A stretch of DNA of 64,000 nt. It comes from Burkholderiales bacterium RIFCSPHIGHO2_01_FULL_63_240 (GTDB taxonomy: Bacteria > Pseudomonadota > Gammaproteobacteria > Burkholderiales > Burkholderiaceae_C). The notes beneath the pieces are model-generated. The model did no database searches. It was not told the DNA's origin and worked only from the letters and a program-made list of their open reading frames with translations. Positions 1 to 19,385 of the stretch are shown here, piece by piece (the first letter of the stretch is position 1; the number at the start of each line of letters is the position of its first letter). The DNA lies in NCBI GenBank assembly GCA_001770725.1, contig MERU01000002.1, positions 620,001-684,000 of the forward strand, in the 5' to 3' direction. The translations under genes were made by a program, and so were the position numbers.

Positions 1-1490
1 ACGCCACCGGTGACCACCACCATGAACGAGTCCACGATGTAGTTCTGGCCGAGGTCGGGGCCGACGTTGCCGATTTGCGAGAGCGCGCAACCGGCCAGAC
101 CGGCGATGCCCGCGCCCAGGGAGAAGGCCATGGTGTCGACGCGGGCGGTGTTCACGCCCATGCAGGATGCCATCGGGCGGTTCTGCGTCACGCTGCGCAC
201 GAACAGGCCCATGCGCGTCTTGTTGATCAGCAGGGTCATGCCGATGAGCACCGCTGCCGCAAAAGCGATGATGACCAGGCGGTTGTAGGGCAGCGTCAGG
301 TTGCTGAGCACGTCGAAGCCACCGGACATCCAGCTCGGGTTCTCGACCTGCACGTTCTGCGCGCCGAAGACGCTGCGCACGGCCTGCATCAGGATCAGGC
401 TCAGGCCCCAGGACGCCAGCAGGGTCTCGAGCGGGCGGCCGTACAGGAAGCGGAACACGCTGCGCTCGAGCACCGCGCCCACCAGGGCGGCGGCCAGGAA
501 CGAAGCAGGCACAGCCAGCAAGATGTACCAGTCAAACGCGCCAGGGAAGTAGGCGCGGAAGACGTTCTGCACCGCGAAGGTGGCGTAGGCCCCGATCATC
601 ATCAGCTCGCCGTGCGCCATGTTGATGACACCCATCAGGCCGTAGGTGATGGCCAGACCCAGCGCGGCCAGCAGCAGGATGGAGCCCAGGCTGATGCCGG
701 TGAACAGCACGCCCGCGTGCTCGCCCCAGGCCAGCTTGCGGTTGACGGCATCGACGGCCGCCTGCAAGGCCCCCTTGACCATGGCGTCGGTTTCGGCGCC
801 ATCGTTCATGCGCTCCATCAGCAGCGCGCGGGACTCGGGCGACGCATCGGCCCCCAGGGCCTTGACGGCTTCAAGGCGCCGACCTGGCTCCTGAGAGTTC
901 AACAGCGCCTTGGAACGAACGGTCTTGAGCTGCTTGAGCAGTTGCGGGTCGGACTCGGCCGCCAGGGCCTTGTCGATGGTGGCCAGTTGCGACTCGTCGG
1001 CCGCACTGGACAGCGCCTCGATGGCCGCGGCGCGCTCGGTGCGGTCGGTGGAGGTGAGCTTGCCGATGGCCAGGGCGGCCTCGATCTCGCTGCTCATGCG
1101 GTTGTTGTTGACGACGTCTTCGGCGCCTTCGGGCAGTTTGGCCGGCTCGCCCGTGACGGCGTCCTTCACGTCATCGCCGTACACGATGTAGGCGCGGTTG
1201 CCCGCCACCTTGACGGTGTCATCGGCCAGGGCCTGCAGGAAGGCTGGGAGCGCGGGGTCGCCCTTGGCGACCACGGCACGCAGGGCCGCCACGCGGTCGT
1301 CACCGTCGCCTGCCGAGATGGCGTAGGCCTCTTCGGCCGTCAGGGCCCAGGCCGGCTGGGCAACGAGGCCACTCAGGCCGAAGAGGCTTGCGCCGAGCCC
1401 GAGGCTCAGGACCAGTTGCACAACGCGTCGGCGCCAGGCACCGACAGGAGGATGGGGGTGGGTTCGATCGATGTCGCTGATCACAGGCAT
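1..1490 (-). CDS. urtB: UrtB, urea ABC transporter permease (3' end cut by window edge)
   Basis: This is an inner-membrane permease subunit of the UrtABCDE high-affinity urea importer (branched-chain amino acid permease family). I translated 496 codons on the minus strand from the ATG at 1490. The reading frame runs off the left edge without a stop, so roughly 30-40 C-terminal residues are missing if the length is typical. A hydrophobic segment at residues 23-50 looks like a signal anchor. A long soluble region of about 200 residues follows, which is the UrtB-specific N-terminal extension. The permease core begins near residue 240, with the family motif GVINMAHGELMMIGAY near residue 285 and several later membrane segments. 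It lies 138 bp downstream of urtA on the same strand, with a terminator-like hairpin in between. urtCDE would be expected beyond the left edge. Confidence 0.93.
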   Translation of the reverse strand, partial: MPVISDIDRTHPHPPVGAWRRRVVQLVLSLGLGASLFGLSGLVAQPAWALTAEEAYAISAGDGDDRVAALRAVVAKGDPALPAFLQALADDTVKVAGNRAYIVYGDDVKDAVTGEPAKLPEGAEDVVNNNRMSSEIEAALAIGKLTSTDRTERAAAIEALSSAADESQLATIDKALAAESDPQLLKQLKTVRSKALLNSQEPGRRLEAVKALGADASPESRALLMERMNDGAETDAMVKGALQAAVDAVNRKLAWGEHAGVLFTGISLGSILLLAALGLAITYGLMGVINMAHGELMMIGAYATFAVQNVFRAYFPGAFDWYILLAVPASFLAAALVGAVLERSVFRFLYGRPLETLLASWGLSLILMQAVRSVFGAQNVQVENPSWMSGGFDVLSNLTLPYNRLVIIAFAAAVLIGMTLLINKTRMGLFVRSVTQNRPMASCMGVNTARVDTMAFSLGAGIAGLAGCALSQIGNVGPDLGQNYIVDSFMVVVTGG

Positions 1491-1496
1491 CACCAG

Positions 1497-1532
1497 AAAA
1501 AAGACGCCCCCTGGGGAGACCCCAGCGGGGCG
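1497..1532 (-). terminator. Terminator or attenuator between urtA and urtB
   Basis: On the minus strand a GC-rich stem (GCCCCGCTGGGG, loop TCT, CCCCAGGGGGC, slightly imperfect) is followed directly by TTTTTT. It sits about 100 bp after the urtA stop and just before the urtB start. A leaky terminator here would give more binding protein than permease, as is common in ABC transporter operons. That role is inference. Confidence 0.7.
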
Positions 1533-1628
1533 AACCGCTCTTTGCACTCGGAGTTTCAACATGCGGACGGAAAGCGACTCCCGTCCGCAGTGACCAGCAC
1601 GAGGCGGGTCACAGGATCGGCCAGGCGA

Positions 1629-2906
1629 TCACTTGACTTCGGGCTCGTCCTTCTTCTTGTCGTTGCCTTCGATGAAGGGGCTCCAGGGCTGAGCCTTGAC
1701 GGGGCCAGGGGTCTTCCAGACCACCTTGAACTGGCCGTCGGACTTGATCTCGCCGATGAAGACCGGCTTGTGCAGGTGGTGGTTCTTCTCGTCCATCTTG
1801 GACATGAAACCACCCGGGGCCTTGAAGGTCTGGCCGGCCATCGCGGCGATCACCTTGTCGGTGTCGGTGGACTTGGCCTTGGTCACGGCCTGGGCCCACA
1901 TGTTGATGCCGATGTAAGTGGCTTCCATCGGGTCGTTGGTCAGGGGCTTGTCCTTGTGACCGGCGATGTTCTTGGCCTTGGCATAGGCCGACCACTTCTT
2001 GATGAACTCGTCGTTGGTCGGGTTCTTGACGGACATGAAGTAGTTCCAGGCAGCCAGGTGGCCGACCAGGGGCTTGGTGTCCACGCCACGCAGCTCTTCT
2101 TCACCCACCGAGAAGGCCACCACCGGCACGTCCTTGGCCTTCAGACCCTGGTTGCCCAGTTCCTTGTAGAAGGGCACGTTGGAGTCGCCGTTGATGGTCG
2201 AGATGACGGCGGTCTTCTTGCCTTCGGACGAGAACTTCTTGATCTTGGCGATGATGGTCTGGTAGTCGGAGTGACCGAAGGGGGTGTACTCCTCGATGAT
2301 GTCGGCTTCGGCAACGCCCTTGGACTTCAGGAAGGCGCGCAGGATCTTGTTGGTGGTGCGGGGGTAGACGTAGTCGGTGCCCAGCAGCACGAAGCGCTTG
2401 GCCGAGCCGCCGTCCTTGCTCATCAGGTATTCAACAGCGGGGATGGCTTGCTGGTTGGGAGCGGCGCCCGTGTAGAACACGTTCTTCTCGAGCTCTTCAC
2501 CTTCGTATTGCACGGGGTAGAACAGCAGGCCGTTGTTTTCCTTGAAGACCGGCAGCACCGACTTGCGCGACACCGAGGTCCAGCAGCCGAAAACGACCGA
2601 GACCTTGTCCTGGGTCAGCAGCTGCTTGGCCTTTTCGGCGAACAGGGGCCAGTTGGAAGCGGGGTCGACCACCACGGGCTCGAGCTTCTTGCCCAGCAGG
2701 CCGCCCTTGGCGTTGATCTCGTCGATGGCCATCAGGACGGTGTCCTTGAGAACCGTTTCGGAGATGGCCATGGTGCCGGACAGCGAGTGCAGCACGCCGA
2801 CCTTGATGGTGTCGGCGGCCTGGGCCATGGTGCTGAAGGCCAGGCCAGCGACGCCGAGGGCGACGGCGGACAGGGACTGGACGGCGCTGCGACGGGACAT
2901 GTTCAT
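1629..2906 (-). CDS. urtA: UrtA, urea ABC transporter substrate-binding protein
   Basis: This is the periplasmic urea-binding protein that delivers urea to UrtBC. It has 425 residues, a normal length. The start at 2906 is chosen because AGGAG lies about eight bases upstream and the protein then begins with an export signal (MNMSRRSAVQSL..., cleavage expected after MAQA). The twin arginines in SRRSAVQ leave open a Tat route. The mature protein starts ADTIKVGVLHSLSGTMA, a hallmark of the UrtA/AmiC-like periplasmic type 1 family. The middle contains VFGCWTSVSRKSVLPV and NGLLFYPVQYEG, typical of UrtA rather than of amino-acid binding proteins. An in-frame GTG-type extension to 2990 has no ribosome site and is not used. 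It is the first gene of the urt operon, with an 18-bp palindrome upstream. Confidence 0.96.
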   Translation of the reverse strand: MNMSRRSAVQSLSAVALGVAGLAFSTMAQAADTIKVGVLHSLSGTMAISETVLKDTVLMAIDEINAKGGLLGKKLEPVVVDPASNWPLFAEKAKQLLTQDKVSVVFGCWTSVSRKSVLPVFKENNGLLFYPVQYEGEELEKNVFYTGAAPNQQAIPAVEYLMSKDGGSAKRFVLLGTDYVYPRTTNKILRAFLKSKGVAEADIIEEYTPFGHSDYQTIIAKIKKFSSEGKKTAVISTINGDSNVPFYKELGNQGLKAKDVPVVAFSVGEEELRGVDTKPLVGHLAAWNYFMSVKNPTNDEFIKKWSAYAKAKNIAGHKDKPLTNDPMEATYIGINMWAQAVTKAKSTDTDKVIAAMAGQTFKAPGGFMSKMDEKNHHLHKPVFIGEIKSDGQFKVVWKTPGPVKAQPWSPFIEGNDKKKDEPEVK

Positions 2907-2979: not shown

Positions 2980-2997
2980 ATACGCCACATGGCGTAT
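2980..2997. promoter_or_regulatory. 18-bp palindrome upstream of urtA, candidate operator
   Basis: ATACGCCA, two bases, TGGCGTAT is a perfect inverted repeat with 8-bp arms. It lies about 73 bp upstream of the urtA start codon, where an activator or repressor would bind. Its dyad form suits a dimeric regulator such as a LuxR-type response regulator or a GntR protein, both encoded nearby. No protein can be assigned from sequence alone. Confidence 0.5.
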
Positions 2998-5936: not shown

Positions 5937-6896
5937 TCAACGCGCCTTGAGCTGCCCCACCCGGCTCATCGCCAGCCCGGCCGCCGCCGTGCGCGTCTCC
6001 ACGCCCAGCTTGGCAAAGATGTGTTCCAGCTGCTTCTTGACCGTGGCCGGGCTGCTGCCCAGGATGTCACCGATGTCGCGGTTGGTCTTGCCCTTGACCA
6101 CCCAGTAAAGCACCTCGCCCTCGCGGGTGGTGAGCTTGAACTCCTGGCTGAGTGCGTCCATGGCGGCCTGGTCCGAGCTCTCCTGCATCACCAGCAGCCA
6201 CTCGTCCTCGCCCGTGGGCTGGTGCAGCGTGAAGCTCAGGCGCCGCCCACCCTGGTTGACCGCCCAGACAGGCACCGTGCCCGATGGCAGCCCTTGCGCG
6301 ATCTCGGCAGACAGCTTGGGCGCCGTCTGCTGCAGCCACTCGGCCAGCTCCACCGGCGCCACGGCTTCAGGCGCATCGAAGTGCGACTGCAGCAGCTTGC
6401 GCGCCAGCGGCGTCTGCCAGAGGATGCGCCCGTCGCTGATGCGCACCGTGATCGAGGCATGGCCGAAGGCATCGAGCGCGTTGCGCGCCTGCCGGGCCTG
6501 GCGCGCACCCTGGATGTGGCTGGCGATGCGGGCCAGCACCTCGCGTGGGCGGATGGGCTTGACCACGTAGTCCACGCCACCGGCATCAAAGGCGGCCACG
6601 ACGTGTTCGGTCTCGCTCAACCCGGTCATGAAGATCACCGGGATGTGGGCGGTTTCCTGCTGGGCCTTCAGGCGCCTGGCGACCTCGAATCCGTCCATGC
6701 CCGGCATGATGGCGTCGAGCAGGATGACGTCCGGCACGGCCTGCAGCGCGCGCTGCAGCGCCGCTTCGCCGTTCGTGGCCACCAGCACGGTGTAGCCGGC
6801 GTCGTCCAGGGCATCGTGCAGCAGCGACAGGTTGTCGGGCACATCGTCAACGATGAGCACGACGTCGGTGCGGCTGCGGTCGAGGCGGTCGAACAT
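5937..6896 (-). CDS. Response regulator: receiver, central domain, LuxR-type HTH
   Basis: This is the output half of a two-component system (319 residues). The receiver domain at about residues 12-130 shows the acidic pair (VDD), the phospho-acceptor Asp in LLDAIMPGMDG, the conserved Thr in FMTG and the Lys in VVKPIRP. A central region of about 100 residues (ASITVRISDGRILWQTPLA) looks PAS-like. The C-terminal LuxR/FixJ helix-turn-helix reads LTTREGEVLYWVVKGKTNRD, then IGDILGSSPATVKKQLEHIF. It begins 45 bp after the end of the transporter-kinase gene and is probably co-transcribed with it. Its location between urt and ure makes it the prime candidate regulator of urea genes. Confidence 0.92.
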   Translation of the reverse strand: MFDRLDRSRTDVVLIVDDVPDNLSLLHDALDDAGYTVLVATNGEAALQRALQAVPDVILLDAIMPGMDGFEVARRLKAQQETAHIPVIFMTGLSETEHVVAAFDAGGVDYVVKPIRPREVLARIASHIQGARQARQARNALDAFGHASITVRISDGRILWQTPLARKLLQSHFDAPEAVAPVELAEWLQQTAPKLSAEIAQGLPSGTVPVWAVNQGGRRLSFTLHQPTGEDEWLLVMQESSDQAAMDALSQEFKLTTREGEVLYWVVKGKTNRDIGDILGSSPATVKKQLEHIFAKLGVETRTAAAGLAMSRVGQLKAR

Positions 6897-6941: not shown

Positions 6942-9900
6942 TCAGGTGCCAGCGGTCTCCAGCGCTTCGTCGACCTGCCTGGCCAGCGCATCGAGCTGGA
7001 ACTGGCGGGCCAGGCCACGCAGGCGGCTCACGAAGGCCTCGCACTCGGGCTGGGCCGCGGCGATCTGGTCGAGCACCTTGTGCACGCCGCGAATGTAACC
7101 CGCGTGCACCTGTTCTTCGAGTTGGCGCAGGGCTTCGAGCTTGGGCAGGGCCTCCCCTTGCGACGGCGCGGCCACGGCCGCCCCTGAGATGGGCGGAGGC
7201 AGGCTGCGCTCGGCTTCGATCCACTGCAGGCCCAGGCGGCGCCCCAGCCAGTCGAGCAACTCGCTCACGCGCACGGGCTTGACGATGAAGTCCTCCGGCC
7301 GGATGCCGACGTCGTTGTCCAGCGCCTTGTCAAAGGCATTGGCCGACACGATCGCCGCAGGCGCATCGCTCAGGCCCTCGGCCTGGACGGCGCGCAAGGT
7401 GGCCCACCCATCGAGGCCAGGCATGGCCAGGTCCATGAAGATGGCGTGTGGGCGCTCGGTCGGTGGCGCGGCGCGCAACTGCGCCAGGCAGGCCAGGCCG
7501 CTGGGCAGCGGTACCACGTCAAAGCCCAGTGGCTCGAGGATGCGCACCAGCAGGCCGCGGTCGGCCTCTTCGTTGTCCACCACCCAGATGCGGCGGCGCT
7601 CGCCGACGTAACCGATGCGCTGGCCGCGCGGGCGCAACAGGCGATCGACCTCTGCCGCGCGCACCTGTGGCAGGAACAATCGGATCTGGAAGGTCGTGCC
7701 CTTGCCCAGCTCGCTGCTCACGCGCATTTCGCCGCCCATGAGGTCGGTCAGCATCTTGCTGATGGTCAGGCCCAGGCCGGTGCCCCCCGCCATGGCACCC
7801 GCCGCCGACGAGCCCCGCTCGAAAGGCTCGAAGATGCGTTCCAGCTCGTGCGGTGCAATGCCTGGCCCCGTGTCGGTGATGTCGATGTGGGCGATCTCTC
7901 GGGCATAGCGCACCCGAAAGCGCACTTCGCCCTGGGTGGTGAACTTCACCGCGTTGCCCAGGATGTTGAGCAGGATCTGGCGCACGCGCTTTTCATCGGC
8001 GCGCACGGCCTCGGGCAGGTTGGCGTCGAGCTCGGCCACGAAGCTCAGGCGCCGCGCATGCGCCTCGTTTTCGATCAGGCCGGTGATCTGCTGGAGCAGC
8101 TCGGCGAAGCGCACGGGCTTGACGTCCAGCGTGAGCTTGCCGCCTTCGATCCGGGCGATGTCCAGCGTGCCTTCGATGAGCGACAGCAGGTGATCGCCAC
8201 CGCGCTTGATGACGCCCACCGCGTGCTTGGCGTGCCCCGGCAGCTTCGCGTCCTCGTCGAGGAGCTGTGCATAGCCCAGGATGCCATTGAGCGGCGTGCG
8301 CAGCTCGTGGCTGATGGTCGAGATGTAGCGGCTCTTGGCCTGGTTGGCCTGCTCGGCCGTCTCGCGGGCACGCTGCAGCTTGTCGTCGGTGATGCGGTGC
8401 AGCTCGATCTCCCGCAGCAGCAGGTGGGTCTGGCGGTTCGATTCTTCCTGCGCCACCAGCCGGCTCTTGTGCGTGAGCACCACCCACCAGCCCACCACCC
8501 CGACGATCAGCAGCAGGGCCACGAACACCTTGAGCAGGGCTTCGCCCATCATGTCGGCGGCCACCGGCAGGCTGCCCAGGTGCAGCGAGCTGATCTCCTG
8601 CAGTTGCTGGCGGTAGACCAGGCCGAACAGCCCCGCCAGCAGCGGCGCCAGCACCGCCATGATCAGCAGGAATTGCCCCAGCTCGGTGTCGAGCCGTCGC
8701 CACAAGGCCAGTGGCACCACCCGCTGCCCCAAAGCACGCCACTGCACGGCCCAGCGCGCATCGGGCTTGCACAGGTCCTGGCAGCGCGCATCCAGCGCGC
8801 AGCACAGCGAGCAGATGAAGCCCTGGTAGGCCGGGCAGGTGGCCACGTCTTCGGCCTCGTACTCGCGCTCGCACACGGTGCAGCGGTGCAGCGCCTTGAG
8901 CCGGATGACGCGCGACAGCGGCTGACCCGCCTCGGGCTCATCGACCTGAGGCAACTCGGAACTGCGCGCCAGGTAATAACGGCCCTTCGTGGCCCAGGCG
9001 ATCACCGGCGAGGTCACGAACGCCACCAGCATCGCGATCACGGCCGAGAAAGCCTGCGCCAGCTCGCCCATCCAGCCCACGTAGGCCACGATCGACACCA
9101 GCGAGGCCAGCACCATCGCGCCCACCCCCACCGGGTTGATGTCGTACAGGTGCGCCCGCTTGAACTCGATGCCCTTGGGCGACCAGCCCATCGGCTTGTT
9201 GATGACCAGGTCGGCCACCACCGCCATGATCCAGGCGATCGCCACATTGGCGTACAGCCCCAGCACCTTGCCCAGCGCCTGGAACAGGTTGAGCTCCATG
9301 AGCATCAGCGCGATCAGCGCGTTGAAGCCCACCCACACCACGCGCCCGGGGTGGCTGTGCGTGACCCGCGCAAAGAAGTTCGACCAGGCCAGCGAGCCCG
9401 CGTAGGCGTTGGTCACGTTGATCTTGAGCTGCGAGATGACCACGAACAGCGCCACCGCCGCAATCGCCCAGCCCTGGTTGGAGAACACCTTCTCCCAGGC
9501 AACGAGGTACATCTGGTTCGGGTCCAGCGCCTGCTCGACCGGCACCGAGTACCCGATGGCCAGGAAGGCCAGCAGCGCCCCGCCAAGCATCTTCAGCACC
9601 CCGGGGATCACCCAGCCCGGCCCGCCGATGAACACCGCCAACCGCCAGCTGGCTTTGTCGGCCTTGTCGTTCGGACGCGGCTCGGGCATGAAGCGCAGGT
9701 AGTCGGCCTGCTCGCCCATCTGCGTGATCAGCGCGATGCCCACCGTCAGCGCCGTGCCGAAGCCGATCAGGTCGAAGCCCGCATGGCGGCCATCCTGCCC
9801 GGCGTACCCGGCCAGGTCGTTGAGGATGCCCGGGTGCTCACGGAACACGTAGACAAATGGCACCACCAGCATCAGCAGCCAGATGGGCTGGGTGATGAGC

Positions 9901-10481
9901 TGCAAGCGGCTGATGGTCGTGACTCCGTGGGTGACCAGCGGCACCACCACCCCGGCCGAGATCAGGTAGCCCCAGGCCGGCGGGATGTCGAAGGCCAGCT
10001 CCAGCGCGTAGGCCATGACCGCCGCCTCGAGCGCGAAGAACACGAAGGTGAAGCAGGCGTAGATGAGCGAGGTGATGGTCGAGCCGATGTAGCCAAAGCC
10101 TGCGCCGCGCGTGAGCAGGTCCATGTCGACGCCATGGCGCGCCGCGTAGACGCTGATGGGCCAGCCGGCCAGCAAGATGATCAGCCCCGTGGTCAGGATG
10201 GCCCAGAAGGCGTTGACGAAGCCGTGGTCGACCAGCAGCGTGGCGCCCACGGCCTCCAGCACCAGGAAGGAGGCCACGCCGAAGGCCATGTTGGCCACGC
10301 CGGCCTTGCGCCAGCGACGGGCCGAACGCGGCGTGAAGCGCAGCGCGTAGTCCTCCAGGGTCTCGGTGGCCACCCAGCTGTTGTAGTCGCGCCGCACCTT
10401 GATGACCCGCTGGCGGGCCTCCGGCGTGGTGCCGGCTTCCGTGGCGTCCTGGGCTTGACGGGCGTGGTCTGTCTCTTGCAT
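6942..10481 (-). CDS. NCS1 transporter-domain hybrid histidine kinase
   Basis: This is a 1179-residue fusion. Residues 25-510 form a complete NCS1-type (purine/cytosine/allantoin permease family) membrane domain with about 12 segments; the family's N-terminal RVIKVRRDYNSWVATETLED region and the GFGYIGSTITSLIYA segment are present. A cysteine-rich stretch at about 534-573 (CTVC, C, CSLCC, C, C) could bind metal or act as a redox switch. Two more membrane segments, a coiled coil and a HisKA domain follow, with phospho-acceptor His725 in ISHELRTPLNG. HATPase motifs (NILGNAV, DTGPGI, GGTGLGLTIS) and a receiver domain with Asp1017 (MDLAMPG) come next, then a C-terminal helical domain. The ATG at 10481 is used; the frame extends open to 10886 but antisense to ureA. 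The transporter domain likely senses urea or a nucleobase, which is inference. Confidence 0.9.
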   Translation of the reverse strand: MQETDHARQAQDATEAGTTPEARQRVIKVRRDYNSWVATETLEDYALRFTPRSARRWRKAGVANMAFGVASFLVLEAVGATLLVDHGFVNAFWAILTTGLIILLAGWPISVYAARHGVDMDLLTRGAGFGYIGSTITSLIYACFTFVFFALEAAVMAYALELAFDIPPAWGYLISAGVVVPLVTHGVTTISRLQLITQPIWLLMLVVPFVYVFREHPGILNDLAGYAGQDGRHAGFDLIGFGTALTVGIALITQMGEQADYLRFMPEPRPNDKADKASWRLAVFIGGPGWVIPGVLKMLGGALLAFLAIGYSVPVEQALDPNQMYLVAWEKVFSNQGWAIAAVALFVVISQLKINVTNAYAGSLAWSNFFARVTHSHPGRVVWVGFNALIALMLMELNLFQALGKVLGLYANVAIAWIMAVVADLVINKPMGWSPKGIEFKRAHLYDINPVGVGAMVLASLVSIVAYVGWMGELAQAFSAVIAMLVAFVTSPVIAWATKGRYYLARSSELPQVDEPEAGQPLSRVIRLKALHRCTVCEREYEAEDVATCPAYQGFICSLCCALDARCQDLCKPDARWAVQWRALGQRVVPLALWRRLDTELGQFLLIMAVLAPLLAGLFGLVYRQQLQEISSLHLGSLPVAADMMGEALLKVFVALLLIVGVVGWWVVLTHKSRLVAQEESNRQTHLLLREIELHRITDDKLQRARETAEQANQAKSRYISTISHELRTPLNGILGYAQLLDEDAKLPGHAKHAVGVIKRGGDHLLSLIEGTLDIARIEGGKLTLDVKPVRFAELLQQITGLIENEAHARRLSFVAELDANLPEAVRADEKRVRQILLNILGNAVKFTTQGEVRFRVRYAREIAHIDITDTGPGIAPHELERIFEPFERGSSAAGAMAGGTGLGLTISKMLTDLMGGEMRVSSELGKGTTFQIRLFLPQVRAAEVDRLLRPRGQRIGYVGERRRIWVVDNEEADRGLLVRILEPLGFDVVPLPSGLACLAQLRAAPPTERPHAIFMDLAMPGLDGWATLRAVQAEGLSDAPAAIVSANAFDKALDNDVGIRPEDFIVKPVRVSELLDWLGRRLGLQWIEAERSLPPPISGAAVAAPSQGEALPKLEALRQLEEQVHAGYIRGVHKVLDQIAAAQPECEAFVSRLRGLARQFQLDALARQVDEALETAGT

Positions 10482-10554: not shown

Positions 10555-10857
10555 ATGGAACTCACCCCCCGCGAGAAAGACAAGCTGCTGATCTTCACCG
10601 CCGCCTTGCTGGCCGAGCGGCGCAAGGCCCGTGGTTTGAAGCTCAACCACCCTGAAGCCGTGGCCCTGATCACCGCCGCCATCATGGAAGGCGCCCGCGA
10701 CGGCAAGACCGTGGCCGCCCTGATGAGCGAAGGCAAGACCGTGCTCAGCCGGGCCGACGTCATGGAGGGCGTGGCCGACCTGATCCCGGAGATCCAGGTG
10801 GAGGCCACCTTCCCAGACGGCACCAAGTTGGTGACCGTGCACCAACCCATTGCATGA
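10555..10857 (+). CDS. ureA: Urease gamma subunit
   Basis: This is the smallest structural subunit of nickel urease, which hydrolyses urea to ammonia and carbamate. The 100-residue protein matches the family from end to end: [37 protein letters not shown], a VMEGV segment and the ending VTVHQPIA. It is the first gene of the ureA-x-B-C-E-F-G operon. The 73-bp gap to the divergent transporter-kinase gene must contain both promoters. That gap holds related inverted segments GGCAAG and CTTGCC (10508-10539) but no clear sigma-54 element. Confidence 0.97.
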
Positions 10858-10950
10858 CCAAGGCTTGGGCTCATTCGCTGCACCAATTAAGTGCAGAAGA
10901 ATGATCTTCAGACCACCGAACAGATCACATCGATCGAACGCAGCACCACC

Positions 10951-11130
10951 ATGAAGCAACTTCGCCCCCTGTCTCTGCTCCTGGCTTCCACGACCGCCGC
11001 CCTGCCCGCCTGGGCCCACGAAGGCCACGGCATGCCCGGCTTTGCCCATTGGCACGCCTCCGATGTGCTGGGCTTCGTGGCCGTGGCGGCCGTGGTCGCC
11101 GCCGTCATCTGGTTCAAGGGCGGCAAGTGA
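10951..11130 (+). CDS. Small His-rich single-pass membrane protein between ureA and ureB
   Basis: This 59-residue protein has a signal-like N-terminus ([20 protein letters not shown], cleavage likely after AWA). A histidine-rich segment [13 protein letters not shown] and a membrane helix ending in WFKGGK follow. Its stop TGA overlaps the ureB ATG by one base, so it is part of the operon and translationally coupled to ureB. A longer frame from 10891 begins with GTG and lacks a signal sequence, so the ATG at 10951 is preferred. In some betaproteobacteria this slot holds ureJ (HupE/UreJ nickel permease). The HxGHG...GF...H pattern resembles the start of that family, but the protein is far too short. 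A nickel-handling role is a hypothesis. Confidence 0.75.
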
Positions 11131-11435
11131 TGACGCCCGGCGAACTGCTCACCGACGGGCCGGACATCGTCCTCAACCCCGGCCGACGCACGGTCACGCT
11201 GGTGGTGGAAAACAGCGGTGACCGCCCCATCCAGGTCGGCTCGCACTACCACTTCGCCGAAACCAACGCCGCGCTCAGCTTCGACCGCACGGCCGCCCAG
11301 GGCATGCGACTGAACATCGCCTCCGGCACGGCGGTGCGCTTCGAGCCCGGTCAGCAGCGCACCGTGGAGCTGGTGGACTATGCCGGCGACCGCATCGTTT
11401 TCGGCTTTCGCGGCCTGACGCAAGGCCCGCTCTGA
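11130..11435 (+). CDS. ureB: Urease beta subunit
   Basis: This is the structural beta subunit of urease, with 101 residues. It begins [19 protein letters not shown], and the family block [19 protein letters not shown] is intact, followed by [17 protein letters not shown] and the ending GLTQGPL. The start ATG at 11130 overlaps the stop of the preceding small gene (TGATG). It assembles with UreA and UreC into the trimer of trimers. It is followed by ureC after 58 bp. Confidence 0.97.
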
Positions 11436-11493: not shown

Positions 11494-13221
<1,728 letters not shown>

Positions 13222-13236
13222 GCCACACTGGCGGCC

Positions 13237-14004
13237 ATGCTGATCGTCAACAAACTCCTCCCCCAAGGCCAGGGCTTGGCCCCCGTGTTGCTCAAGCGCG
13301 CCTCGCAGGTCGAACTCGACTGGGACGTGCGCCAGAAGAGCCGCTTTGACGCCACCGACAGCCAGGGCCGCACCCTGGGCGTTTTCCTGCCTCGTGGCAC
13401 CCTGGTGCGCGGTGGCGACGTGCTGGTGGCCGAAGACGGCTCGATGGTCCGCGTGGTGGCCGCACCTCAGCCGGTGCTGGTGATCACGCCCTGCGCCGAG
13501 CACGGCACGCCATTCGACCTGGTGCGCGCGGCCTACCACCTGGGCAACCGCCACGTGCAGATCGAGCTGCAGCCCGACCACCTCAAGATCGAACCCGACC
13601 ACGTGCTGGCCGACATGCTGCGCGCCATGCACCTGACGGTGCGCGATGCGGCCGTGGCGTTCGAGCCCGAAGGTGGCGCGTATGCGGCGGGTGGGCACGC
13701 CGCACACGGGCACCACGGCCATGGGCACGGTCACGGTCACGGTCACGGCGATGACCATGCCCATGGCGATCCAACGCACAACCATGTCCCGGCAGCCAAC
13801 CCGCCCCACGGCGCACCCGGCCATGTGCACGGCCCGGGCTGCAGCCACGGGCACGGGCACGCGCACGACCATGGCCATGCCGCCGCCCCCGTGACCCGAG
13901 GCAAGCCCATCGGCATCGCCGTCAAGCCAGCCGAAGCCGCACCCCATGTCCATGGGCCCGGTTGCGGTCATGGTCACGACCATGGCCACGGGCACGACCA
14001 CTGA
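13237..14004 (+). CDS. ureE: Urease accessory protein UreE with extended His-rich tail
   Basis: This is the nickel metallochaperone that hands Ni to UreG during urease maturation. Residues 1-140 form the two UreE domains, including [15 protein letters not shown] and the conserved metal-site block [18 protein letters not shown]. The remaining 115 residues are an unusually long low-complexity tail of [11 protein letters not shown] and two HVHGPGC repeats. The two cysteines sit in [10 protein letters not shown] and [10 protein letters not shown]. Many UreE proteins have a His tail of 10-20 residues, so at 255 residues in total this one is much longer. A nickel storage or buffering function is likely. 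It lies 15 bp after ureC. Confidence 0.96.
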
Positions 14005-14031
14005 GCCCCTGAAGCAGGCCCGTCGCCAACC

Positions 14032-14790
14032 ATGCCCCGCATCGCCCCTCGCCCCACGCCGCTGAGCGCCGGGGCCCGCCTGCAGCTGATGTGGCTGGCC
14101 TCGCCCGCCCTGCCCGTCGGCGGCTTCAGCTACTCGGAAGGGCTGGAGGCCGCCATCGACGCCGGCATCGTCACCACCGAAGCCCATGTCGCCAGCTGGC
14201 TGCGTGACCAATTGCACCTTGCCGTGGCCCGCAGCGACCTGGCCATCGTGGCCCGCGCCGTGCCCGCCTGGCAACGAACTGACCTTGCCCGCGTGCGCGA
14301 GCTCAACGACTGGGTCGTGCAGACCCGCGAAACCGCCGAGCTGCGCCTGCAGACCGAGCAGATGGGCCGCTCACTCGTCGAGTGGCTGCGCAACCGCAGC
14401 GGCGGCGCCCAGTCGGACAACGCCGACCCACGCCTGCAGCATTGCGCCACCCTGCCTCCCGCCCCCACCTGGCCGGTGGCCTTCGCATTGGCCGTGGCCC
14501 AGTGCCTGCCCGCATCCAGCGGCCACGCGGACGGTGAAGCCGCCCTGCGCGAAGCCCTGCTGAGCTTCACCTTTGGTTGGGCCGAGAACATGGTGCAGGC
14601 CGCCATCAAGGCCGTGCCCCTGGGCCAAAGTGCAGGCCAGCGCATCCTGCAATCCCTGATCGACGCCATCCCCGGCGCCATCGACCACGCCTTGTCGCTG
14701 CCCGACTCGCAGCGCCAGGCCTTCACGCCCATGCTGGCCATCCTGAGCAGCCAGCACGAAACCCAGTACTCACGCCTGTTCCGATCATGA
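14032..14790 (+). CDS. ureF: Urease accessory protein UreF
   Basis: UreF is the helical GTPase-gating partner of the UreDFG chaperone complex. The 252-residue protein shows the family N-terminal block [21 protein letters not shown] followed by AAIDAGIV. The C-terminal segment [20 protein letters not shown] is also present. A central insert of about 25 residues ([22 protein letters not shown]) is less conserved. The stop overlaps the ureG start (ATGA). The complex partner UreD is not encoded in this window. Confidence 0.95.
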
Positions 14791-15434
14791 GCAACCTGCA
14801 CAACATCCCCGGCCGCACCAAGAAGCTCCCGCCACTGCGCGTGGGCGTCGGCGGCCCCGTCGGCTCCGGCAAGACCACCCTGCTGGAGATGCTCTGCAAG
14901 ACCATGCGCGAGCACCACGACCTCGTCGTCATCACCAACGACATCTACACCAAGGAAGACCAGCGCCTGCTGACCGTGGCCGGCGCGCTGGACCCGGACC
15001 GCATCATGGGCGTGGAGACCGGTGGCTGCCCCCACACCGCCATCCGCGAAGACGCCTCCATCAACCTCGAGGCCGTCGACCGCATGCTGGCCAAGTACCC
15101 CAACGCCGACATCGTCTTCATCGAGTCGGGCGGCGACAACCTGGCGGCCACCTTCAGCCCCGAGCTCTCCGACCTGACCATCTATGTCATCGACGTGGCC
15201 GCCGGGGAAAAGATCCCGCGCAAGGGCGGCCCAGGCATCACCAAAAGCGACCTGTTCGTCATCAACAAGACCGACCTGGCGCCACACGTAGGCGCCAACC
15301 TCGAGGTCATGGCGTCCGACACCCAGCGCATGCGGCCCACGCGCCCCTTCGTGATGACCAACCTCAAGACCAAGGCCGGCCTGGATCAGGTGATCGACTT
15401 CATCGAGACCAAAGGCCTGCTGCGCGCGGCCTGA
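14787..15434 (+). CDS. ureG: Urease accessory GTPase UreG
   Basis: UreG is the SIMIBI-class GTPase that powers nickel delivery to apo-urease. It has 215 residues. The P-loop is [15 protein letters not shown] (about residues 20-34). The dimer metal-binding Cys-Pro-His motif is in [15 protein letters not shown]. The switch region is [15 protein letters not shown], and the guanine-specificity motif NKTDL follows. It starts at an ATG that overlaps the ureF stop. It is the last gene of the urease operon in this window; no clear intrinsic terminator was seen after it. Confidence 0.97.
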
Positions 15435-15569: not shown

Positions 15570-18500
15570 ATGAACAAACAGGGTGACGCCACCGGTGAAG
15601 ACGCCGGTGGCCATGGCGCGTGGTCCGCGCAACTGAAAGACGAACTGAAGGCCATCGCCCGACGGCGCCGCCGCGTGGCCCCGTCGCTGGACGAAGCCCA
15701 AGCCGATCCGGCCCGTCACGACCGCAGCATCCCTCTCGCAGGATTGGCCCTCTCCGGCGGCGGTGTGCGCAGCGCCACCTTCTCGCTCGGCCTGCTTCGA
15801 GGTCTGGCCAAAGGCGGCCGCACCACCACCCCGAGCGCGACCGCCAACGGCGCTCGCGAGCAGCCCGACGTGGGTCCGGGGGCATCGCCCTCCACACCCG
15901 CCAAGCCCTCCAACGGACACGCCGAGCACCCCGCAGAACAACTCAGCCGCCAAGGCCTGCTCGGCCGCTTCGACTACCTCTCGTCCGTCTCAGGTGGCGG
16001 CTACGTGGCCGCCATGCTGGGGCGCCTGGCGGCCAAGGCCGAATGCGAGCCCACCCCCTCGGGCGACTGCGGCATGGTCGAAGCCGAACGCACCCTGGCC
16101 AGCCACGACGGCAACGTGCTGAGCTGGCTGCGCCGCAATGGCCGCTACCTCAGCCCCGGCGGCTCGCGCGACATCGGCATCGTCGTGGTCACCTATGTGC
16201 GCGCGCTGCTGGCCATCCACCTGGAGTTCATGGTTTTTTGCCTGATGTGGGGGCTGCTGGTGATCACCCCGCACCTGTGGCAATACAGCACCCAGGTGCT
16301 CTCCAGCGCCTGGAAGGGCTGGTACTCGCCCTGGGTGGCGCTGTCCGCCGGCCTGCTCATGGCCGTTGGCCCCGGCCTGATCGCGGGCTATTGGTTCACG
16401 CGCGACACCCCCCGGCCCGACGCGCACACCTGGCGGGCACGCGTCGCGCAAGCCGTGCAGTGGCTGATGGCCGTGGCCCTCGTCGCCTTGGTGCTCTGGA
16501 TGCGGCGTGACGCCAGCGCACCGGCGATCGACAGCCTCTACGCCAGCGGCCCAAGCGCCTACGCCGTCATCTCGTTGATGATCGGCTCGGTGTTGCTCGG
16601 GCAGGCCTTGTGCTGGCTGGCGCTCGTGCACCCACGCATGCGGCGAAGCGGCAACGCCCTGGCCGCCGCCCGGCTGCGCAACTGGCTGACCCGGGCCCTG
16701 CATGGCACCGGCGTGGCCGCGGTGCTGTTGCTGGCCCTGGGCGTGCTCGACGCCGCCAGCTGGTGGCTGCTGCAGGAGTTGATGACCGGCAGCAATGCCT
16801 GGTGGGGCGGCATCGGTGCCGGTGGGGTCGGCATCTTGTTGCTGCGCTCGTTCGCCCAGCCCTTGCAACAGCTGGCCGCCGACACCGAAGGCCACGCCCG
16901 CGAATGGCTGCCCAAGCTGCTGGGCGTGCTCAGCGCCATCGGCCTGCTCTGCCTGGTGATGGCCTGGCTCGTGACCTTGCAATGGCTGGTCTTCGCGCCC
17001 GACAGCATCGAGGCGATCAGCAGCGCCCCGCCACTGCTTCGCGCGGTCTTCGTGCTGCTGGCCTGCCTGGCCTGGATCGCCCTGACCTCGACCAACACCC
17101 ACATGCCCAACAGCACCTCGCTGCACGCCTTCTACCGTGCGCGGCTGACACGCGCCTACCTGGCCGTGGGCAACCCGACCCGCCTGCCCTGGCGGGGCCT
17201 GGGGCGCGAGCGCAGCGTGCGCAACGTGGTCGAAGGCGACGACGGCCTGCTGGCCCACTACCGCCCCGAAGACCAGGGCGGCCCCATCCACCTCATCAAC
17301 GCCTGCCTGAACGAAACCCGCGACAGCGACAGCAACCTCTACAACGCCGACCGCAAGGGCGCGCTGCTGACCGTGAGCTGGCGGGGCATGGAGGTCGGCC
17401 CGAGCGAGGTGCACCGCCACGCCTCGCCCGAGCAGGCCGGCACGGTCGGGCAATGGGTGGCGGTCTCGGGCGCGGCCGCTTCGCCCGGCGCCGGGGCCTA
17501 CACCTCGCGAGGCCTGGCCCTGCTGCTGTACTTCCTGGGCATCCGGCTGGGTTTCTGGATCGCCAGCCCGATCCGCACCCCCGGCTTGCGCTGGCTCAGC
17601 CAGCTCGGCTGGGACTGGTTCCCCAAGCCGCTCATGCTGACCTGCGAGGCCACCGCCACCTTCATGGGCCAGGAACGCCCCTGGTGGTACGTCTCCGATG
17701 GCGGGCACTTCGACAACACCGGCGTCTACCCGCTGATCAAACGCGAGCTGGACTTCATCATGCTGTCCGACGCCAGCTCCGACCGCCACTTCCAGTTCAA
17801 CGACCTTGAAAACCTGGTGCGCAAGGCGCGCATCGATTTTGGCGCCGAGATCGACTTCTACACCCGCGAGGAAGCCTCTCGGCTCTTCACCCTGTGCGGC
17901 ACCGACCTGACCGTGCTCTCGCCAGAAGACCTCCGCGACAACACCTCGCGCCGCGGCCTGCTGCTGGCGCGCATCCGCTACCGCGAGCGCCCCGACCCGA
18001 GCCGCCCCGGTCAGACCAGCCGACCCGAAGGCACGCTGGTCGTCATCAAGCCCAACCTGCACAACGCGCTGGATGTGGACGTGCTGTCCTATGCCGAGCG
18101 CAACCCGACCTTCCCCCACGAGGCCACATCCGACCAGTTCTTCGACGAAGCGCAGTGGGAGAGCTACCACCGCCTGGGCGAAGACATCGGGCAGGCGCTG
18201 ACCGAGACCTGGCTGGCCCAGTTGCCCGGCTGGCGGCACCGCGCGCGGCACGCCGTGCGGGTCTCGGCGCGACTCAACCCCGCCGTCGCGGCCCAGCAAG
18301 CCTCGCCCGAGCCCCTTTGGCGACGGGGCCCGCGTGGCGCGGCCCTCAAGACCACGCTGGGGCTGGGCGCCTCGGGCACGCTGCTGCTGTCGGGCTGGCA
18401 GATCGTCGAGAGCATGAACGTGCAGCAAAAGGAAGCCCGCGCCCAGGCCCGCGAGTTGTTCGTCAAGGTATCGACCGAGCTGCAGGGCTTCGACCGGCAG

Positions 18501-19385
18501 TGCAAGGCCATCCCCGAACACGTCATCAACCAGGCCGAGAGCCTGATGCTGGACGTGGTTCGCAGCGACACGCTCAGCTCGCTCGACCGGGGCAGCGTGC
18601 ACCGCATGAGCGCGCGCATCCGCGAAAGCTGCCAGCCAGGCGCCGAGGCCTGGCAGGGCTGCACCCCGCAGGCCAGTCAGGACCGGCAGGTGTTCTGTGC
18701 CGCCATGCAGCGCCCGCCCGCCACCGCCACCGCGATGAACTACTGGGTCGCACCTCAACGCCCGGAGGAACAATACGCTGCGGCACTGGCCCTGCTCAAT
18801 CGGTGGACCCGCGACGAGCCCTCGGACACAGCGTTTGCGCAAGCCCCCCCGCCTGCAGCGACCAACAACGCCCCCGTGCTCGCATCGACGGAGGGCCTGC
18901 CTGACGAGATCGTTCCGGCCGCCGGCCCCACCCCAGGCGATCACCTGGCGCAAGCCTGCCCGACCCGCGCTCCCGCAGCCCTGCTGTACGTGCAGATCTA
19001 CGACGAAGCCGCCCGCAACATCGCCGAAGACCTGCGCCGCAAGCTCAACGCCCAGTCGGCCAGCCCGTGGATGGTGCCGCCGGTTGACAACGTCGTGCAG
19101 CGCTCGAGCCTGCAGGGCCAGCGCGGGCCGGTGCCCTGGCCCCGCCCGACCATCGTGGTGCACCGCGAAAGCGACATGGCCTGCGCCGAGGGCTTGCGGG
19201 AATGGCTGAGGCCTCACCTGGCTTCGCGCAGCCCGGGCAGCACCACCGATGCCGCCCCGGCCGAGATCTGGATCCGGCGCCTGCCACCCACCGTCAAGGG
19301 GCGCGATGGCGTCTTCGAACTCTGGCTGCCGGCGCCTCAGTCGGCCGCAATCGGCAGGCAGGCCAGCGTCAATCCACTACACTAG
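15570..19385 (+). CDS. Very large multi-pass membrane patatin-like phospholipase
   Basis: This 1271-residue protein combines a patatin lipase with a membrane domain. The oxyanion-hole motif LSGGGVRSATFSLG lies at about residues 61-74. The nucleophile elbow GxSxG is in SSVSGGGYVAA near 140. The catalytic Asp of the Ser-Asp dyad is in VSDGGHFDNTGVYPL near 710. The catalytic elements are therefore separated by more than 550 residues, including about eight predicted membrane helices between roughly 205 and 520. Another hydrophobic segment near 925 (TTLGLGASGTLLLSGWQIVE) precedes a C-terminal soluble region of about 330 residues with no recognised fold. It is a single gene between ureG and a tRNA. 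The lipid substrate and location face are unknown. Confidence 0.85.
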   Translation: MNKQGDATGEDAGGHGAWSAQLKDELKAIARRRRRVAPSLDEAQADPARHDRSIPLAGLALSGGGVRSATFSLGLLRGLAKGGRTTTPSATANGAREQPDVGPGASPSTPAKPSNGHAEHPAEQLSRQGLLGRFDYLSSVSGGGYVAAMLGRLAAKAECEPTPSGDCGMVEAERTLASHDGNVLSWLRRNGRYLSPGGSRDIGIVVVTYVRALLAIHLEFMVFCLMWGLLVITPHLWQYSTQVLSSAWKGWYSPWVALSAGLLMAVGPGLIAGYWFTRDTPRPDAHTWRARVAQAVQWLMAVALVALVLWMRRDASAPAIDSLYASGPSAYAVISLMIGSVLLGQALCWLALVHPRMRRSGNALAAARLRNWLTRALHGTGVAAVLLLALGVLDAASWWLLQELMTGSNAWWGGIGAGGVGILLLRSFAQPLQQLAADTEGHAREWLPKLLGVLSAIGLLCLVMAWLVTLQWLVFAPDSIEAISSAPPLLRAVFVLLACLAWIALTSTNTHMPNSTSLHAFYRARLTRAYLAVGNPTRLPWRGLGRERSVRNVVEGDDGLLAHYRPEDQGGPIHLINACLNETRDSDSNLYNADRKGALLTVSWRGMEVGPSEVHRHASPEQAGTVGQWVAVSGAAASPGAGAYTSRGLALLLYFLGIRLGFWIASPIRTPGLRWLSQLGWDWFPKPLMLTCEATATFMGQERPWWYVSDGGHFDNTGVYPLIKRELDFIMLSDASSDRHFQFNDLENLVRKARIDFGAEIDFYTREEASRLFTLCGTDLTVLSPEDLRDNTSRRGLLLARIRYRERPDPSRPGQTSRPEGTLVVIKPNLHNALDVDVLSYAERNPTFPHEATSDQFFDEAQWESYHRLGEDIGQALTETWLAQLPGWRHRARHAVRVSARLNPAVAAQQASPEPLWRRGPRGAALKTTLGLGASGTLLLSGWQIVESMNVQQKEARAQARELFVKVSTELQGFDRQCKAIPEHVINQAESLMLDVVRSDTLSSLDRGSVHRMSARIRESCQPGAEAWQGCTPQASQDRQVFCAAMQRPPATATAMNYWVAPQRPEEQYAAALALLNRWTRDEPSDTAFAQAPPPAATNNAPVLASTEGLPDEIVPAAGPTPGDHLAQACPTRAPAALLYVQIYDEAARNIAEDLRRKLNAQSASPWMVPPVDNVVQRSSLQGQRGPVPWPRPTIVVHRESDMACAEGLREWLRPHLASRSPGSTTDAAPAEIWIRRLPPTVKGRDGVFELWLPAPQSAAIGRQASVNPLH

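Follow-up and report, generated by a model that had tools for sequence, protein, structure and literature searches.

An NCS1-type transporter-domain histidine kinase linked to urea and short-chain-amide genes, with a predicted operator before urtA

In the sensor kinases CbrA and CrbS/MxtR (SLC5/STAC) a membrane domain resembling a transporter is joined to a histidine kinase, and CbrA and CrbS/R are the closest published kind to the system described here. CbrA binds histidine and histidine transport is mentioned (PMC13022988), CrbR is a LuxR activator (PMC9100948) that requires an imperfect inverted repeat at its target promoters (PMC5715377), and in the pyruvate system RpuS/R a transporter-domain kinase and a response regulator control the cognate uptake system (PMC9100948). 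A first-pass annotation of the DNA analysed here had pointed out that transporter-like kinases such as CbrA, with an SLC5 domain, are known. The present locus lies in a 64,000-nucleotide stretch of Burkholderiales bacterium RIFCSPHIGHO2_01_FULL_63_240 (contig MERU01000002.1, positions 620,001 to 684,000; hereafter the window) and encodes a hybrid histidine kinase with a divergent NCS1-type membrane domain. The kinase shares its fold with NCS1 transporters, is linked to urea and amide genes, and its presence is accompanied by a palindrome; because of this architecture, linkage and palindrome, the two-component system likely controls a urea ATP-binding cassette (ABC) transporter operon, and a paralogue in the same genome an amide operon.

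The locus resembles RpuS/R in pairing a transporter-domain kinase with a regulator for cognate uptake, and differs from it in that RpuS/R has an SLC5 domain, pyruvate and a direct-repeat site. Compared with CbrA and CrbS, the window kinase is of NCS1 type, its membrane domain not qualifying as SLC5 (SSF); Pfam gives no STAC or PAS match between transporter and kinase, where a Cys module and a helical hairpin are predicted instead. Its predicted targets are urea and amide genes, and the palindrome is unlike the ACTU motif sequences given in PMC5715377. UrtABCDE and Fmd-type urea/amide ABC transporters, the predicted targets, are transporters and not sensors. Among the top matches in the open-licence PMC literature, whose coverage leaves subscription papers mostly outside, there was no NCS1-type kinase or urea-sensing transporter-domain kinase. 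In Table 4 of a Dechloromonas aromatica report (PMC2907700), UrtA has as neighbours a histidine kinase of 1131 residues and a CheY-like receiver of 308; from this tabulated description, the pair is presumed to be the same system.

The kinase is a stop-free open reading frame (ORF) of 1179 residues. HMMER with Pfam places HisKA at 715–781, HATPase at 829–937 and the receiver at 965–1077, all above gathering scores, so that the first-pass reading of these three domains in one protein holds; the SHELRTP, N-box, G-box and receiver Asp motifs of such a hybrid kinase are all found. The fusion is not a chance reading, since residues 20–700 are matched (E ≤ 0.001) by at least 7,999 candidates, that is, by 7,999/7,999 scored. 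Its parts are:

6942..10481, minus strand: NCS1-type transporter-domain hybrid histidine kinase, 1179 residues (ORF translation, HMMER)
8964..10376, minus strand: NCS1-type membrane domain, residues ~36–506 (AlphaFold2 model, PDB matches, profile match)
8769..8882, minus strand: Cys module, residues 534–571, predicted β-hairpin and helices, common to kinase-free permeases (motif, structure model)
8340..8684, minus strand: predicted helical hairpin and long helix into HisKA, residues 600–714 (structure model)
8139..8339, minus strand: HisKA, SHELRTP motif, candidate phospho-His725 (HMMER and motif)
7671..7997, minus strand: HATPase_c (HMMER)
7251..7589, minus strand: kinase receiver domain, candidate phospho-Asp1017 (HMMER and motif)

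A C-terminal extension after the receiver (~1100–1179; window ~6942–7184) is conserved as GYxRG...LDxI...FQL and has no Pfam match.

Assignment of the membrane domain to NCS1 (TC 2.A.39) needed other tests than PF02133, because this Pfam model has no match to the kinase even at E ≤ 1 and none anywhere in the window genome. Structure comparison of an AlphaFold2 model (predicted local distance difference test score, pLDDT, 84.3) finds CodB and Mhp1 as the closest solved structures, at about 15% identity, and hhalign against a profile of AllW, CodB and L138 (an NCS1-like but different protein that lacks the Cys motif) gives a probability of 99.3, E 2.9e-20 over 412 columns; against CodB alone the match is weak (probability 13.2), and no NCS1 chain came up when PDB sequences were searched by hmmsearch with the family profile A3. 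Among kinase-free relatives PF02133 matches 3/18, at least two of the three being near-identical. The NCS1-type domain that the annotation had claimed thus stands by fold and by profile alignment, with PF02133 giving it no match. Beyond escaping PF02133, the window protein differs from Mhp1 and CodB in its Cys tail, its kinase and its urea/amide context.

The annotation had also proposed comparing substrate-site residues with Mhp1, which succeeded in part. The NCS1 Gln at Mhp1 position 121 aligns with E152, and in an ungapped alignment F148 stands opposite the Trp that CodB and Mhp1 have in this motif (the hhalign profile alignment has a one-column gap there); residues of transmembrane helices TM6 and TM8 found no confident register against Mhp1. 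Invariant residues of the membrane domain include E152, E257, Q258, D260 and N355. In all 154 loci where each part had a single match, the membrane domain is more conserved than the kinase part (mean identity to the window's 65.2% vs 48.7%).

The Cys-rich segment noted at first pass is confirmed: its cysteines are C534, C537, C549, C557, C560, C561, C567 and C571, and the Cx2C...CSLC(C) pattern recurs in 166/168 related ORFs, the misses being the non-member L138 and L098, on a truncated contig. Among the kinase-free homologues listed, 119/120 have it as well. A model of residues 1–715 (pLDDT 80.5) shows a β-hairpin with helices at this segment, followed by a helical hairpin and a long helix towards HisKA; the module is putatively zinc-ribbon-like. 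From the motif in kinase-free homologues and the model we infer that the Cys segment is part of the transporter module and was carried into the fusion.

Genomic neighbourhoods were compared in three samples. In the 80 nearest loci from named species genomes, ureABC lies in reach of 58, urtABC of 32 and either of 65; in 57 the closest of the probed genes is a divergent ureA (within 415 bp in 52 of them), and the regulator is present in 74. Enrichment near ure or urt genes, set as a test beforehand, was thus found for urea. A class-level sample had the domain in 14/276 genomes (18 places), and 8 of the 15 regions opened adjoin urea or amide genes. Phylum (65/397 genomes positive) and order (35/200) samples gave 98 distinct places, of which 70, about one per genus, were chosen before their neighbours were seen (no more than 4 or 7 initial candidates were scored in each genome; L138 is among the 70, counted as a miss). 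Here 36 loci have amide genes (fmdD-type ABC, fmdA formamidase or aliphatic amidase), 21 urea genes and 3 both, making 60/70. The wider theme is urea and short-chain amides, the window genome included: its paralogue kinase on contig C9 lies beside formamidase and its ABC genes. Four other genomes (G465, G585, G451 and G410) likewise each carry one urea-linked and one amide-linked kinase. In a tree built by FastTree only, amide-linked kinases are scattered around the base, and those linked to urea genes turn up in no fewer than three, and probably four, separate regions, the fork between two urea-linked clades being weak. In the phylum sample the family kinase is present in 42/42 genomes with FmdD (E ≤ 1e-110), against 23/355 others; in the class sample only 4/13 FmdD genomes have it. 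Most of the kinases opened have an ABC system or permease close by. The annotation had suggested sensing of urea or its purine precursors: the urea link is strongly supported by linkage, whereas 17 E. coli purine, pyrimidine and allantoin proteins used as probes on 166 loci matched weakly in four only (L112, L091, L080 and L185), judged unrelated. This negative is good rather than absolute evidence, because E. coli probes are distant and could miss distant relatives of purine genes.

Columns that separate urea- from amide-linked kinases were tabulated to seek specificity residues. Position 320 is Asp (or Asn) in the urea-linked clades and Glu in 31/42 amide-linked kinases and 15/15 aligned kinase-free relatives; comparison of the sequences suggests it as a possible specificity marker.

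Relatives without a kinase, named allantoin or cytosine permease in databases, lie beside urea or amide genes in 8/9 places. One (L034) follows ureG in a ureD-A-B-C-E-F-G cluster beside a nickel transporter; another (L023) sits with formamidase and amidase, divergent from a kinase. In a plasmid collection, 7 of the first 18 match rows were opened and 6/7 places adjoin urease, formamidase or aliphatic amidase genes. Formamidase is the neighbour in Moraxella osloensis, Tsukamurella and Methylovirgula (there with kinase and amidase) and aliphatic amidase in Arthrobacter; the Streptomyces angustmyceticus place has nothing relevant beside the relative. In the L188/L186 pair, the permease follows ureG in a Klebsiella pneumoniae record, whose cluster holds an insertion sequence element and lists no ureC, and precedes ureEFG on an Acinetobacter ursingii plasmid; both permeases, annotated as cytosine or allantoin permease, are perhaps misnamed urea carriers. 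Altogether 523 plasmid records contain a match to one or both forms of the family, 340 of them Klebsiella, of which one kinase region was opened: on this pKPN3-type plasmid (L193, NZ_KY271405.1) the kinase is divergent from annotated urtABCDE and formamidase. The contexts of kinase-free relatives are the main ground on which urea and short-chain amides are proposed as ligands of the domain.

At the window locus, the following elements bear on regulation:

5937..6896, minus strand: probable cognate response regulator, receiver and LuxR-type helix–turn–helix (HTH), candidate phospho-Asp61, 319 residues (HMMER; same-strand neighbour)
2981..2996, no strand assigned: predicted operator TACGCCACATGGCGTA (palindrome scans; 74 bp to the urtA ATG at 2906)
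1629..2906, minus strand: urtA, urea ABC transporter substrate-binding protein (TIGR03407)
10555..10857, plus strand: ureA, divergent from the kinase (profile matches)

The regulator sits downstream of the kinase on the same strand after a 45 bp gap, and its receiver and GerE/LuxR HTH place it in the LuxR family. UrtA, scored as the longer ORF 1629–2990, reaches 591.8 bits against the TIGR03407 cut-off of 492.75; the start at 2906 is preferred because the in-frame ATG at 2990 falls inside the palindrome. Kinase and ureA are indeed divergent, as first annotated, with 73 bp between them.

The palindrome was first spotted by eye in three fmdD regions, as TACGTN6ACGTA, which is exact in 22/37 fmdD–kinase intergenic regions and in no shuffle; widening to TACGYN6RCGTA came after viewing urtA regions. 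The wider form is exact upstream of urtA in 30/48, fmdD in 30/38, FmdA in 6/41 and the kinase in 35/162 cases, and is missing before UrtB (0/33), UrtC (0/28), UrtE (0/23), UreG (0/54), FmdE1 (0/39), FmdF (0/42) and the response regulator (0/117), 0/336 together, and before UreC (0/71). These counts are not an independent test, because the motif was derived from the same regions. The window itself is scored as a miss among the 48, the longer urtA start having been used; its copy at 2981–2996 is exact. Searching the window genome with the core TACGYCANNTGRCGTA at up to one mismatch finds two places, this copy (exact) and the fmdD–kinase gap on C9 (one mismatch), with none for the reversed control, and both sit at kinase-linked operons. 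Elsewhere the sole core place in G091 and one of two in G585 lie before urtA genes ~100 and 245 kb from the kinase, respectively; G410 has one before urtA and G465 one before a separate aliphatic amidase gene.

Presence of the site follows presence of the kinase. UrtA occurs in 56/200 order genomes, and upstream DNA was read for 55 (G757 was dropped, its gene being at a contig edge). The exact site stands at urtA in 9/10 genomes with a urea-clade kinase, in 0/9 with an amide-clade kinase only and in 0/36 without a kinase (9/10 vs 0/45, Fisher p 1.6e-9, which ignores shared ancestry); a one-mismatch copy occurs in 1/36 kinase-free regions (G654). At fmdD it is exact in 30/33 with a kinase and 0/9 without (p 4.9e-7, again ignoring shared ancestry), from all 13 class-sample places and the best 30 of 45 phylum-sample places (42 distinct). 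Of the ten urtA sites in the urea clade, six were already known, as were most fmdD regions from genomes with a kinase. New were the control genomes and, within the urea clade, G685, which lacks the site, and G451, G741 and G817, which have it. G685, G741 and G817 were assigned to the urea clade by tree position, no urea gene being at the kinase locus, and G670 and G748 were classed as amide-type from a same-genus relative. The Klebsiella plasmid has an exact palindrome in its urtA–kinase gap (site at 8822), Methylovirgula has one before formamidase and amidase, and Sinorhizobium an exact copy at an unannotated place; six plasmid regions with a kinase-free permease only have none. Because the palindrome stands before urtA and is absent between kinase and ureA, the predicted target is the urea ABC transporter operon and not ureA.

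We propose a transceptor-type sensor kinase, in which the NCS1-fold membrane domain would bind urea, having descended from a urea/short-chain-amide permease that already bore the Cys module. Its conformational state may be relayed through the Cys module and the helical hairpin and long helix to HisKA, from which the phosphoryl group would reach the neighbouring LuxR-type regulator via the kinase receiver, or directly. The regulator would then bind TACGYN6RCGTA before urtA and presumably raise expression of the urea ABC transporter; the paralogue would do likewise for the amide ABC transporter–formamidase operon. That urea is the ligand and the membrane domain its receptor is suggested by the kinase-free contexts and the stronger conservation of that domain. 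Taken whole, this account seems to us probable.

Several observations weigh against it. Neither ureABC nor urtABC is in reach at 15/80 nearest loci (several cut by contig ends), 7/15 class-sample regions lack urea or amide genes (L022 and L030 on short or cut contigs), and 10/70 genus-sampled loci adjoin neither. The exact site is absent before UreA (0/78) and AmiE (0/18) and infrequent before FmdA. G685 has a urea-clade kinase and no palindrome at urtA, and no exact copy lies in the kinase regions of Sphingobium and Mitsuaria, though the former has a urea-binding-protein gene. A loose window scan (two mismatches) gave 3 matches vs 3.1 expected and is uninformative, and over ten genomes the core, allowed one mismatch, occurs at 23 places vs 38 for the reversed control. 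Since outside the window genome the core is not above chance in number, position is the palindrome evidence: in nine kinase-bearing genomes 12/20 of these places lie before urtA, fmdD or amidase and the other 8 do not, against 0/3 in kinase-free G123. Linkage, too, could arise if the urea genes were controlled in response to a different signal.

In a rival reading the membrane domain would sense purines, allantoin or hydantoin as upstream sources of urea, in the manner of canonical NCS1 substrates. The NCS1 fold and the database names of the relatives suit this, and we nonetheless hold it to be very improbable given the weak matches of the distant E. coli probes in only four of 166 loci, neighbours that are urea and amide genes, and the invariant E152 and, in the ungapped alignment, F148 at the positions of Mhp1 Gln121 and the CodB/Mhp1 Trp. 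It is very unlikely, too, that the membrane domain is a mere anchor and the Cys module senses nickel, zinc or redox, the urea genes responding since urease needs nickel. Invariant cysteines and the nickel transporter of the L034 cluster speak for that, but the motif is equally kept in listed kinase-free permeases, conservation is higher in the membrane domain than in the kinase part, the palindrome lies before urtA rather than ureA, and amide-linked kinases stand at formamidase/amidase operons, whose enzymes are not known to contain nickel.

Sensor kinases can also read partner ABC transporters, and the proximity of most opened kinases to an ABC system or permease would fit a fusion that regulates urea/amide genes by reading transport flux or nitrogen status, without itself binding urea. 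This is unlikely, in our estimate, as some genomes have the kinase unlinked to its target operon and the domain retains its own transporter core with the invariant residues E152, E257, Q258, D260 and N355.

Extending the urea-binding kinase proposal, the family may be a new class of urea/short-chain-amide carriers in the NCS1 fold, with a C-terminal zinc-ribbon-like Cys tail, occurring free or kinase-fused, whose tail became a coupler of occupancy to phosphorylation and whose kinase form still transports; we regard this as possible but doubtful. If the proposal is true, a sensor class found in 65/397 sampled phylum genomes would gain ligand, regulon and operator together, the family would comprise candidate urea/amide permeases misnamed in databases, and a further transporter-kinase fusion, from a transporter family other than that of CbrA, would be at hand for studying carrier-to-receptor evolution. 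The predicted operator makes the account testable at a single promoter.

The remaining urea genes of the window are:

3..1562, minus strand: urtB, running off the window (position and homology)
11130..11435, plus strand: ureB (Pfam, tested as the ORF from 11049)
11494..13221, plus strand: ureC (profile match, NCBIfam)
13237..15434, plus strand: ureE, ureF and ureG (ureE by Pfam; ureF and ureG by position and homology in related loci)

In locus L019, urtC, urtD and urtE continue after urtB. UreF has no NCBIfam match. No ureD was seen within the window's ureABCEFG cluster; the sole UreD match in the window genome (G000 contig C2:17145–17765, L312) lies ~600 kb away. Between ureA and ureB lies a small ORF (10891–11130) without Pfam match, whose start resembles a signal peptide; at this place the Mitsuaria region carries HupE/UreJ. 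Downstream of ureG, 15570–19385 encodes a 1271-residue protein with no Pfam match at E ≤ 0.01, which by eye looks patatin-like from its motif.

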